Assembly (NCBI RefSeq): GCF_014696675.1
Contig: NZ_JACJQN010000001.1
Location: 186,001 to 250,000, forward strand
Direction of reading: 5' to 3'
Length of the DNA stretch: 64,000 nucleotides
From: Phormidium tenue FACHB-1052
GTDB taxonomy: Bacteria > Cyanobacteriota > Cyanobacteriia > Phormidesmidales > Phormidesmidaceae
The notes under the pieces are model-generated. The model had not been told where the DNA came from. It saw nothing but the letters and a program-made list of their open reading frames with translations, and did no database searches. Positions 24,805-28,554 of this stretch are shown here, in pieces. Within the stretch, counting starts at the first letter, position 1. The number at the start of each line of letters is the position of its first letter. The translations under genes were made by a program, and so were the position numbers.

Positions 24805-25008
24805 ATCAAACTTATTTTTAGACAGCATTCGTTCAGTCTTCAAACTAGGGGCGGCAGTAGCCTCCCACATCTAACTTGCGAGGGAGTTATTGCTCTAAAA
24901 CATCCTCAGGTTAGGGACTCTCAAAGCACAATGTCCCACATTAGGCAGATGGGACTATTGGGCTGCTGCGGTTAGATGAAGGGGAACGGACTCCGAAGAG
25001 ACATAACT

Positions 25009-25542
25009 ATGAGCATCAACATTGGCCTTTCCGAACAAGAGCGCCAGGGCGTAACCGATATTCTCAACAAGGTTCTGGCCGACGCCTATCTGCTGTTAAT
25101 CAAAACCAAAAAGTACCACTGGGACGTAGTTGGCCCTCAATTCCGCACCCTTCACGAACTGTGGAAAGAGCATTACGAAGCCCTCACCATTAGCATTGAC
25201 TCCGTAGCTGAGCGGGTGCGCCAGCTCAACGGCTACCCCCTGGGCACTGCTGAAGGGTTCCTCAAGAATGCTTCTCTGAAAGAGCATCCTGGCGATCTGC
25301 CCTCTGCCCAAGAAATGGTCAAGCGACTGGTTGTTGACCATGAGCAAATCATTCGCAACCTGCGCGGGTTTGTTGACCAAACCTCCGAAGAGTTCCATGA
25401 CGAGGGCACCTCAGACTTTCTGACCGGCCTGATGGAAGCGCACGAAGAAATGGCTTGGATGCTGCGCTCCTTCCTGGACGGCGAATCCTTCGAATCGAGC
25501 GGCACCCGCGACCAAGAGCTAGCTACCAGCAACCTGGCATAG
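25009..25542 (+). CDS. dps: Dps-family DNA-binding ferritin-like protein
   Basis: Dps proteins form dodecamers that oxidise and store iron and protect DNA under stress. The 177 residues from ATG 25009 carry the inter-subunit ferroxidase ligands with exact spacing: His37, His49, Asp64 and Glu68 (KKYHWDV, TLHELW, ISIDSVAERV). The C-terminal helix is acidic (HEEMAWMLRSFLDGES). The open frame reaches back to 24976, but the ATG at 25009 gives the family N-terminus. There is no Lys-rich N-terminal tail, so DNA binding is uncertain. A T-tailed hairpin ends the transcript. Confidence 0.94.
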   Translation: MSINIGLSEQERQGVTDILNKVLADAYLLLIKTKKYHWDVVGPQFRTLHELWKEHYEALTISIDSVAERVRQLNGYPLGTAEGFLKNASLKEHPGDLPSAQEMVKRLVVDHEQIIRNLRGFVDQTSEEFHDEGTSDFLTGLMEAHEEMAWMLRSFLDGESFESSGTRDQELATSNLA

Positions 25543-25643
25543 TTTGCTTCAGGACAGCACTAGCTGCTTTAAGTAGTTCAGTTGTGAATTCTTAAAGTTT
25601 GGTCTTCCAAGACCAGCAACGAGTCTAACTTAGCCTCGTCAAC

Positions 25644-25693
25644 CACCCCGCCTGTAGCCTTCCTTAAGAAGCCTATGGGCGGGGTGCTTTTTG
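25644..25693 (+). terminator. rho-independent terminator after dps
   Basis: CACCCCGCC (25644-25652) pairs with GGCGGGGTG (25678-25686), followed by CTTTTTG. The loop contains a second imperfect helix (AGCCTTC with GAAGCCT). It lies about 100 bases after the dps stop. Confidence 0.8.
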
Positions 25694-25760
25694 CGCCCAT
25701 CTGTACCTAACTCCCCATGACCTATGGGAGGATCAACTCACTCATCTCCCCATCTTCCCC

Positions 25761-27401
25761 ATGCCCACCGTCACTTTTCCCCTCACCTACCTGCAACGGC
25801 TGACCCCCACCGCCCCTCAGCAGCTAGCCCAGCAGGCCTTTGACTACGGACTAGATGCCACCTTGGGCGACCAAACCCTAGAGGTCGAAGTCACCGCCGA
25901 GCGGCCCGATCTGCTAGCGGCAGAAGGGTTTACCCGCGCCATCAACATCTATAACGGTCTACCCCGCACTGTCCCCGAGCAGCTACTCGCCTCGGGTCGC
26001 CGGGTCACCGTCCAACCTGAGGTGTTGCCCCTGCGACCCCACATTGCCGCCTTGGTCGTGCGGGGGGCTGACTTGCAAGGCGGCGGGTTAGAGGTGCTGG
26101 TGCAGTTTCAGGAGAAGGTGACCCAAACCTTTGGTCGCCAACGCAAGAAAATTGCGATCGGCGTCTACGACCTCGACAAAATTAGCGGCGATTTGACCTA
26201 CACCGCAGAATCCCTCGATGAATTGACCCTTGTGCCCCTACACAGCACCCAACCCATGACGGCCCGGCAGATTCTGCGCGAGCACCCGGCGGGTAGGACC
26301 TATGGCCATACCCTACCGGGAGATGACTATGCCCTAGTGCTGCGCGATGCCAGCGGCACTGTACTTTCCATGCCGCCAATCATCAACGCAGCGGGGGTAG
26401 GAGAAGTGGACGCCAACACCCGCAATTTATTCATTGACGTCACTGGCATTCTGGCCCAAACGGTGTTAGAGACGGCCAACATTCTGACCCACAACTTTTT
26501 AGACACCGGAGCTGAGGTGCAAACTGTGGAGATTGCCACTCCCCAGGGCATGCTCACCACCCCAAGCCTGGCCCGCTATCCCGTGCAGTTTTCGGCCAAG
26601 TATCTCAACGAAATTATGGGCACCGCTATTCCTAAGAGCGGCCTGGGTCAAGTGCTCTCCCGCATGGATCTGGAGGTGAGCGGTACCGATGTGGTGCATG
26701 TGCCTACCTATCGCACCGACATCTTTAGCCAGGTTGATCTAGCGGGGGATTTACTAGTGGCGATCGGCATCGGCACGCTCCAGGCCGAACCCTTAGCCGT
26801 CAAATTTCATTTAGGGGAAGCCGATGCCCTGCGCCAGGCCATGTTTAAGGTGGGTGATCTGGCTCAACGCATGGGATTGATGGAAGTGAAGAGTTTTGTG
26901 CTCACCGATCCCGAAATTCTCGATCTGTTTGGGGCGACCTATGTGCAGACCGGCAATGCCAAAAGCCGCACGTTTAGCGCCACTCGCACCACCCTGCAAG
27001 CGGGGCTGCTAGATATTCTGGCTCGCAACATTAACGCGCCCAAACCTATCAATATCTATGAAACCGGGGAAGTGCTGCGGTTCAATGCGGCAGATGTCCC
27101 TGACGAAAGCCAGCACTGGAGCTTTGCCAGCCTAGATGCTCGCGCCTCGTTTACTACCGCCAAAGCCTACATGCAGACCATGCTTAAAGCCCTAGGGCTG
27201 AGCTATGAACTGACTGTCTGCGAGGCTTCCTATTACATTCCGGGACGAGCAGCTACGGTGGTGATTCAGGGACAGCCGGTAGGAGAATTTGGCGAAATTC
27301 ACCCGCAGGTGCTGGAGCATTTTTCGTTCCCGGAGCCGGTCTGTGCCGGGGAACTAGACTGTACCGCTAGCCTGCTCGTAGCCTCCGAACGGCGGCGTTG
27401 A
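25761..27401 (+). CDS. archaeal/eukaryal-type phenylalanyl-tRNA synthetase beta subunit homologue (orphan)
   Basis: This 546-residue protein follows the short archaeal/eukaryal PheT layout, not the ~800-residue bacterial one; it has no N-terminal EMAP-like OB domain. Motifs are EVTAERPDLLAAEGFTRAI (about 43-61), AIGVYDLDKI (132-141), a B3/4-like region with MPPIIN (204-209) and TRNLFIDVTG (220-229), a B5-like region with VHVPTYRTDI and a catalytic-like C-terminal module (LMEVKSFVLTDPEIL, NIYETGEVL). No pheS lies nearby. Cyanobacteria are expected to carry bacterial-type pheT elsewhere, so this may be a repurposed or transferred homologue. GC and codon use resemble the neighbours. Translation from ATG 25761. 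Confidence 0.85.
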   Translation: MPTVTFPLTYLQRLTPTAPQQLAQQAFDYGLDATLGDQTLEVEVTAERPDLLAAEGFTRAINIYNGLPRTVPEQLLASGRRVTVQPEVLPLRPHIAALVVRGADLQGGGLEVLVQFQEKVTQTFGRQRKKIAIGVYDLDKISGDLTYTAESLDELTLVPLHSTQPMTARQILREHPAGRTYGHTLPGDDYALVLRDASGTVLSMPPIINAAGVGEVDANTRNLFIDVTGILAQTVLETANILTHNFLDTGAEVQTVEIATPQGMLTTPSLARYPVQFSAKYLNEIMGTAIPKSGLGQVLSRMDLEVSGTDVVHVPTYRTDIFSQVDLAGDLLVAIGIGTLQAEPLAVKFHLGEADALRQAMFKVGDLAQRMGLMEVKSFVLTDPEILDLFGATYVQTGNAKSRTFSATRTTLQAGLLDILARNINAPKPINIYETGEVLRFNAADVPDESQHWSFASLDARASFTTAKAYMQTMLKALGLSYELTVCEASYYIPGRAATVVIQGQPVGEFGEIHPQVLEHFSFPEPVCAGELDCTASLLVASERRR

Positions 27402-27633
27402 CCTAGGCTGGTCACGTTAAAGGGCTAATGTCCTGGGTTGATTTAATCCATAGCAGTGCCCCAATGCCAGCGACACCTTGCCCGATGAAATGCCACACAG
27501 AACGGGGACAGTAGGCCAGGTATGGGAGAAAGTGCCATAACCAAATATTACGGTTGCCACCAAAATCGTGATGCAACCATGACGTTCCTCTGCCCTTTGG
27601 CTAGTCTGGTCATCATCCTCCAGCCGGAATGCC

Positions 27634-28554
27634 ATGAGCGACTCTTCTATTGACGGCCCCACCCGGGTCTATGCCAAACCGACCGAAGGCCACGTTTCCC
27701 TGGGGCGAGGGGTGCGTCAAGTACTGTTTTTGGTGCCCATGACGGTGTTGTTTGCCCTGCTCTTCTTTGGGCTACCCGTGCGCCAGCGCACAGTGGGGCT
27801 GACCGCTGGAGCTATTGTCGCGGTGCTGTGGAATGTGGTGGTAAGCGGAGTGCGGGTCGCTGCCCAGTGGGAGCGGGGCGTCATTTTACAGCTAGGCAAA
27901 ATTCAGGACGTGCGGGGGCCAGGGTTGCTATACGTGGTGCCGATCCTGGAGTCGGTGCAGTTTATCGACACCCGCACCCTGGTGATCAACATTCCGCGCC
28001 AGAAGGTAATTACCCGCGACAACGTGCCTGCCGAAATTGACAGCGCCCTGTTTTTTCAGGTGAACGATGCTCAAAAAGCGGTGATTTCGATTCAGGACTT
28101 TCGCTTTGCGGTGTCGCAGTATGCCCAGGCGGCGCTGCGGGATGTGGTGGGTGGCCTTTCGCTCGATGATCTGCTGTCGGAGCGAGATCAGATTCAGACT
28201 CAGATTGGGGCGATCGTGGAGGCCCAGGTACAGGAGTGGGGCATGCACATCGACTCGATTCGGCTGCAAGACATTGAGCTGCCGGAGGATCTAAAGCGGA
28301 TGATGTCGCGCCAGGCTTCGGCGGAGCGAGAAAAGCGGGCGACGATTACGAAAGCGGATGGCGATCGCCTCGCTGCCCAAAGTCTAGCCGCCGCCGCCCA
28401 AATTATGGAGGCCAACCCCATCGCCCTTGAGCTACGCACCCTGCAAAGCATTGATAGCCTAGGGGCTAGTCCGTCGAATACGGTGATTTTGTTTCCGATG
28501 GAGCTATCCCAAGCCCTAGGCAACCTGCGGGCTAAACCTGCACCCGAGGAGTAG
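27634..28554 (+). CDS. slipin / stomatin-like SPFH membrane protein
   Basis: This 306-residue protein has two N-terminal hydrophobic segments (about 28-47 and 53-72) followed by an SPFH domain: [28 protein letters not shown], then [22 protein letters not shown] helical tail runs through [26 protein letters not shown]. Slipins scaffold membrane microdomains and often partner with NfeD proteases; none is adjacent. The start ATG 27634 is the only good option. gloA follows after about 60 bases on the same strand. Confidence 0.92.

Follow-up and report, generated by a model that had tools for sequence, protein, structure and literature searches.

The window, a 64,000-nucleotide stretch of contig C1 of a cyanobacterial genome (G000; 5.8 Mb, 36 contigs, 99.99% complete), carries a gene, here called pheTa, whose predicted product is a beta subunit of phenylalanyl-tRNA synthetase (PheRS) of the archaeal/eukaryal type. 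Together with an alpha-subunit gene of the same type elsewhere in the genome (pheSa), it looks, at the level of sequence, like part of a second PheRS of foreign type that is complete and maintained alongside the native one. We read it in this way because both subunit genes are present, they co-occur across genomes, they are adjacent in relatives, their active- and editing-site residues are kept, and both are under purifying selection.

First, the type of the beta subunit was examined. A first-pass annotation had described a 546-residue archaeal/eukaryal-type PheT at this locus, and the description held: the frame is exact on the + strand, the motifs AIGVYDLDKI, MPPIIN, TRNLFIDVTG and VPTYRTDI were all present in the translation, and the protein scored 335.8 bits against the archaeal pheT model TIGR00471 (cut-off, 282.65), covering model positions 1 to 548 of 551. 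Against the bacterial pheT model it reached 120.8 bits where 402.65 are required, so that it did not qualify as the bacterial type; this match lay mainly in the common B5/CLM part. In Pfam, the B1 domain was matched below the cut-off. The N-terminal tRNA_bind (B2) and C-terminal FDX-ACB (B8) domains were absent from PheTa at E values up to 1, the former absence having already been noticed in the first pass, whereas the bacterial PheT that G000 also encodes has both. All 18 aligned PheTa sequences matched pheT_arch at E <= 1e-5. The nearest solved structures by sequence were PheRS beta chains of human, P. horikoshii, and other eukaryotes; the N-terminal part of PheTa showed 32.8% identity to P. 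horikoshii and 28.9% to human, compared with 32.4% between human and P. horikoshii. The predicted structure (mean pLDDT 78.8) fitted the N-terminal fragment of P. horikoshii PheT (2cxi) with a TM score of 0.89 by target length and an rmsd of 2.6. By E-value, human 3l4g_B ranked first, with a loose fit over the full length (TM 0.58 of query, rmsd 18.8). A divergent cyanobacterial PheT was ruled out by the family-model scores and the domain set. These results indicate that the window gene encodes an archaeal/eukaryal-type PheRS beta subunit.

Table 1. Features at the pheTa locus, in window coordinates.
Feature	Position	Strand	Basis
Strong hairpin between dps and pheTa, with CTTTTT after it	25644..25687	+	-30.5 kcal/mol, z -5.6 vs 200 shuffles
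pheTa, second archaeal/eukaryal-type PheRS beta subunit, 546 aa	25761..27401	+	Open frame and pheT family model
B3/4 (editing) domain, residues 113-240	26097..26480	+	Pfam B3_4 24.4 bits, below cut-off 29.3; aligns with P. horikoshii 2cxi
Editing-site residues L194, S203, N209, D226, T228	26340..26444	+	Alignment to P. horikoshii L202, S211, N217, D234, T236
B5 domain, residues 275-336	26583..26768	+	Pfam B5, above cut-off
Catalytic-like module (CLM), residues 354-533	26820..27359	+	Pfam tRNA_synthFbeta, above cut-off

Subsequently, the partner subunit was sought. No pheS was found in the window, as had been observed before, and the two pheS matches of the genome lay on C12 and C34. The label "orphan" given to pheTa is accordingly right locally and wrong genome-wide, since the match on C34 (C34:55963-57429; L041:5964-7433) is pheSa, with a product of 489 aa that scored 406.9 bits against the archaeal PheS equivalog NF003210 (cut-off, 350), and its occurrence was concordant with that of PheTa in 62 of 63 genomes. 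A stray beta subunit without a partner was thereby excluded. The match on C12 is the bacterial pheS, and a bacterial pheT was found on C32; both genes for which the first pass had proposed a search, the bacterial pheT and the archaeal-type pheS, are thus present. PheTa falls outside ordinary cyanobacterial PheT and is not the only PheT of the genome. Judged from these matches, G000 has complete subunit sets for two PheRSs that differ in type. In the N-terminal region of PheSa, where the archaeal/eukaryal type has three DNA-binding-like domains, NF003210 covered residues 10-488, and the A2 profile aligned with human alpha from residue 26; Pfam gave no match there and Foldseek scores were weak, and the predicted structure of this region was mostly confident. 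The PheSa model as a whole was poor (pLDDT 61.9; Foldseek TM 0.22 to 3l4g_C).

Both archaeal-type genes were then followed across cyanobacteria. Of the 63 genomes of the order, 31 had PheTa and 30 had PheSa, and in drafts some of these genes were partial; the sole discordant genome, G003, is an 86%-complete draft in which the beta subunit was found without the alpha. Carriers belonged to 5 of the 14 genera of the order. Within the window's genus, PheTa was present in all 26 genomes and PheSa in 25. When a sample of the class was searched, PheSa was present at E <= 1e-90 in 34 of 388 genomes, of which 24 come from the window's genus, 5 from elsewhere in its family, and 5 from other families, and the five carriers outside the family, G030, G465, G547, G570, and G585, all had PheTa as well as PheSa. 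An even sample of the phylum gave a pheT_arch match above the cut-off in 1 of 386 genomes, the window's own.

The bacterial PheT scored above its cut-off in all 38 genomes examined, including the window's; 24 of these are carriers. PheTa is thus a second PheT beside the normal bacterial one, as had been supposed. In a set of ten carriers, the bacterial PheT exceeded the cut-off in eight, the exceptions being G044 and G570. PheTa was the only PheT match in G044 (95% complete, 910 contigs), where the bacterial gene may have been lost or may merely be unassembled. In the draft of G570 (92% complete, 610 contigs), the bacterial pheT (C480, L283:1381-2657) stays in frame over some 334 residues before passing into unrelated sequence, 257 bases from the contig end. 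An insertion, a rearrangement, or an assembly error could explain this break. The tail had no match in Rfam, apart from one chance-level hit elsewhere in the stretch, or among plasmids, and in a comparison with the other loci it matched its own locus only.

Gene order provided information on how the pair arose. In five relatives outside the genus, G045, G465, G547, G585, and G570, pheSa and pheTa were adjacent on the same strand with pheSa first, separated by 57 nt in G045, 70 nt in G465, 10 nt in G547, and 230 nt in G570. In all but two of the 25 genomes of the genus with both genes, the two were on separate contigs; in the other two, G011 and G014, they are on a single contig at distances of about 0.46 and 1.75 Mb, respectively. 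Because the pair is adjacent in the five relatives and apart in the genus, we infer an ancestral pheSa-pheTa operon that was later split.

In the PheS tree, the 19 cyanobacterial archaeal-type rows formed one group (97/96) beside three eukaryotic PheS, and a long branch, of a kind about which the program warns, split the archaeal-type group from eight bacterial PheS. The tree of the archaeal-type enzyme broadly paralleled that of the bacterial PheT, with G030 and G045 outside the genus, and this parallel suggests long vertical descent within cyanobacteria. These trees omit the partial PheTa of G044 and G448, and the bacterial PheT tree holds 13 of the 14 carriers of the archaeal-type tree, G570 being missing as only the first part of its bacterial PheT was found. 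Mapped on the bacterial PheT trees, carriage required four or six changes depending on the tree, which implies several losses or transfers. The pair of G465 grouped with family f1 (94/96, not starred) and the bacterial PheT of the same genome with f3/f24 (95/98, starred); most simply, the operon was likely transferred between cyanobacterial families in this case. No archaeal or spirochaete PheRS was found in plasmid and viral collections. An old transfer, one of the origins considered in the first-pass annotation, is the best account of PheTa.

We also examined whether functional residues were kept. For these counts, matches below 45% identity were excluded and identical proteins were merged, and the distinct sequences include some versions that are cut or end at a contig end. 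The core is covered by 36 of the 37 distinct PheSa. Each of these 36 kept the residues checked in motifs 2 and 3 as well as the pocket residues N416, Y418, and F444 (N410, Y412, and F438 of human), the 37th ending short of the sites. For the editing site of PheTa, we took the relevant positions of P. horikoshii to be L202, S211, D234, and T236. The corresponding L and T were kept in 38 of 38 distinct PheTa sequences, and S and D in 37. N209, which corresponds to P. horikoshii N217, was Asn in all 38. The latter residue has been reported as the editing-site Asn of the P. horikoshii enzyme, and the human pocket triad as that of the archaeal/eukaryal type, the bacterial pocket being Phe/Phe/Val (PMC3275996). 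The most divergent member, PheTa of G030 (L044), has C for S and E for D at the editing residues as well as insertions; to judge from these changes, its editing may differ.

Taken together, these findings lead us to consider it probable that the two subunits form a complete (alpha beta)2 PheRS of the archaeal/eukaryal type, acquired as an operon and serving as an ordinary auxiliary synthetase. An ancestor of some filamentous cyanobacteria would have acquired the enzyme as a pheS-pheT operon, which would later have come apart in Nodosilinea. PheSa and PheTa would assemble as (alpha beta)2; PheSa would activate Phe and presumably charge the tRNA-Phe of the cell, and PheTa would complete the structure and hydrolyse Tyr-tRNA-Phe. 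In such a scheme the archaeal-type PheRS would play an auxiliary part next to the native bacterial enzyme.

As for why a second enzyme would be kept, the likeliest specific reason is a pocket that resists inhibitors or tolerates analogues: with N, Y, and F in place of the bacterial F, F, and V, the archaeal-type PheRS could go on charging tRNA-Phe while the native enzyme is blocked by a natural inhibitor or an analogue of Phe. This proposal is a sub-hypothesis on the role and is compatible with the auxiliary synthetase favored above; we regard it as possible and put it forward tentatively. The archaeal/eukaryal pocket is found in all 36 PheSa sequences that cover it, carriers outside the family are scattered (5 among the 34 found in the 388-genome class sample), the operon was likely transferred between families in G465, and certain characterized duplicated synthetases are reported to vary in antibiotic susceptibility (PMC4787780). 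However, the presence of PheTa in all 26 genomes of the genus suggests a constant benefit, and no biosynthetic or resistance gene was recognized by eye near pheSa or pheTa, where few of the neighboring frames were scanned for families. Likewise, no link between a PheRS inhibitor and these cyanobacteria was found in the portions of the literature consulted, PMC7904546 included, which is not proof of its absence. Protection from m-Tyr by editing seems a weak reason for keeping a second PheRS, because eukaryotic-type PheRS is reported to edit m-Tyr poorly, although the human enzyme is also described as having weaker binding of m-Tyr than its bacterial counterparts (PMC4066437, PMC3275996).

The tRNA raises a question of its own. 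One tRNA-Phe(GAA) was found among 42 tRNA matches in the genome, for which 150 of 219 first-look candidates were scored; the list holds no tRNA-Leu(UAA), so the single tRNA-Phe is not proof that another is absent. When the tRNA-Phe sequence was used as a DNA query, G000 yielded no further copy. A second, archaeal-like tRNA-Phe was rejected on the basis of the one tRNA-Phe among the matches scored. This tRNA-Phe is of the bacterial type, with U20, as we read its D loop, and, also by our reading, with G at position 59. Among the best 30 loci compared, 19 were identical to that of the window's genome, all from PheTa carriers, and the remaining 11 were one base off in the D loop (position 16) or the T loop (position 60) by our numbering, 5 from carriers and 6 from non-carriers. 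A tRNA-Phe altered at identity positions in carriers was thus not seen across these 30 loci. G20 has been reported as an identity element for the yeast and A. pernix PheRSs, and U20 and U59 for that of E. coli (PMC9976931), and archaeal/eukaryal pairs of PheRS and tRNA-Phe are reportedly not cross-reactive with bacterial ones (PMC3275996). Given a bacterial U20 tRNA-Phe and this non-cross-reaction, the enzyme must either have become adapted or have another task.

Stated as two PheRSs from different domains of life facing apparently one tRNA-Phe, the foreign one having re-evolved U20 recognition or left bulk translation for a special acceptor, sensing, or trans-editing, this account seems to us rather improbable. 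We consider it similarly unlikely that the archaeal-type PheRS, having no cognate tRNA of archaeal type and charging the U20 tRNA-Phe poorly, has left bulk translation for another reaction, such as use of another acceptor, trans-editing, or amino-acid sensing. The single bacterial-type tRNA-Phe found, with the reported orthogonality (PMC3275996), speaks for such a role, as does the lower mean identity to the protein of the window's genome in the N-terminal part of PheSa (0.69) than in its core (0.90), although faster divergence of the N-terminal domain is also expected of an ordinary enzyme. On the other hand, the residues checked at the catalytic, pocket, and editing sites are conserved, with G030 differing at two editing residues, and spirochaetes are described as relying on an archaeal-type PheRS, which must have adapted to bacterial tRNA (PMC3191353), so that adaptation here is conceivable. 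The first pass had also raised a repurposed synthetase-like protein, against which the partner pheS, the adjacency in five relatives, the kept residues, and the low dN/dS argue. Adaptation to the bacterial tRNA-Phe with an auxiliary charging role is the course we take as most likely.

Selection on the two genes was estimated from dN/dS, with the window's genome as the reference. Across nine congeners, the ratio was 0.066-0.102 for PheTa, 0.062-0.109 for PheSa, and 0.046-0.091 for the bacterial PheT. In distant genomes, where dS is near saturation, it rose to 0.24 for PheTa and 0.22 for PheSa (both in G030), and that of the bacterial PheT was 0.10 in G030 and at most 0.16 (G045). PheTa evolves faster than the bacterial PheT. 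The low ratios show purifying selection on pheTa and pheSa that is slightly weaker than on the native enzyme. Internal stops were absent from 30 of 31 PheTa matches in the order, the single stop of G040 being at the C-terminal end, and from all 30 PheSa matches. A redundant relic heading for loss, which would fit with absence or loss of PheTa outside 5 of the 14 genera, is highly improbable in view of these intact frames, of dN/dS values of about 0.06-0.11 for both subunits in the nine congeners, and of single-gene absence being confined to the alpha gene of the 86%-complete G003.

The closest known system is the archaeal/eukaryal cytosolic PheRS (TIGR00471, NF003210; 3l4g, 2cxi), with which the cyanobacterial proteins share the subunit sizes, the long N-terminal extension of alpha, and the pocket and editing residues; its beta subunit likewise lacks the EMAP-like and B8 domains. 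Unlike that enzyme, PheSa and PheTa share a bacterial cell with a PheRS of bacterial type and a tRNA-Phe found once and carrying U20, and their genes are apart in Nodosilinea. By their published description, spirochaetes (Spirochaeta, Borrelia, and Treponema) also have archaeal-type alpha and beta subunits in bacteria, both apparently transferred together; there the archaeal-type enzyme replaced the bacterial one (PMC3191353), whereas the bacterial enzyme stays in the cyanobacterium. The duplicated ThrRSs of Anabaena (T1/T2) are another cyanobacterial case of a single amino acid served by two enzymes; according to the account consulted, the copies can exchange subunits and T2 is important when zinc is deficient (PMC4787780), whereas the two PheRSs differ in architecture. 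No description of an archaeal-type PheRS in cyanobacteria was found in the literature searched in part, subscription journals and preprints lying outside its scope. The PheRS family and its transfer into bacteria are thus known, and its coexistence with a native enzyme and a bacterial tRNA-Phe is new. With an archaeal-type PheRS accompanying the native enzyme across the genomes sampled from one genus, these cyanobacteria lend themselves to the study of how a synthetase of archaeal type recognizes bacterial tRNA, why two fidelity systems are kept for one amino acid, and whether the second PheRS acts as a resistance or stress enzyme. For the same organisms, pheS and pheT are unsafe as single-copy markers. 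If orthogonal or altered in specificity, PheSa and PheTa would be useful for genetic-code work.

The surroundings of the genes were also inspected, by a neighbor search that covered the window's pheTa and the pheSa of its genome. The neighbor genes of the window's pheTa recurred only near the pheTa of close relatives, and no third conserved partner gene was seen in the neighborhoods of deeper carriers (four loci read by eye). On visual inspection of 10 aligned congeners, 9 showed the hairpin between dps and pheTa; the one without it was G008, in which dps is about 5.5 kb away; the terminator scan did not report it. It is perhaps the dps terminator, in which case pheTa would be its own transcription unit. 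A functional link to dps was rejected because dps is not adjacent in deeper carriers and the hairpin separates the two genes. No sigma-70-like promoter was detected in a scan of 24900 to 27700, and no known RNA element reached the gathering threshold in the window. In the genomes scanned, the 260 bases upstream of pheTa and pheSa contained no Zur-like pattern, in the form that we take to be typical, and Zur-type control was rejected on this basis. In G045, a gene for a Trm1-type tRNA methyltransferase (L047:4026-5132) lies directly upstream of pheSa on the same strand. Co-acquisition with Trm1 was rejected, as Trm1 occurs in 59 of the 63 genomes of the order, including most of those without PheTa. 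In G547, an elongation factor G gene (L260:4035-6125) adjoins the pheSa-pheTa pair in divergent orientation.

Finally, partial copies of tRNA-Phe, extending from about position 27 to the 3' end, were observed in G007 (C15:72925-72971) and, in similar form, in G008, G010, G013, G022, G430, G431, G434, and G435. They occur in carriers and non-carriers, mostly beside an intact tRNA-Phe gene, and resemble the attachment sites of integrative elements that target tRNA-Phe. ARAGORN named 41 of the 42 tRNA matches of the window's genome; the last, a 3' fragment on the - strand at C12:72262-72318 (L279:763-819) with an anticodon loop read as CCC (glycine), is possibly another attachment-site remnant.
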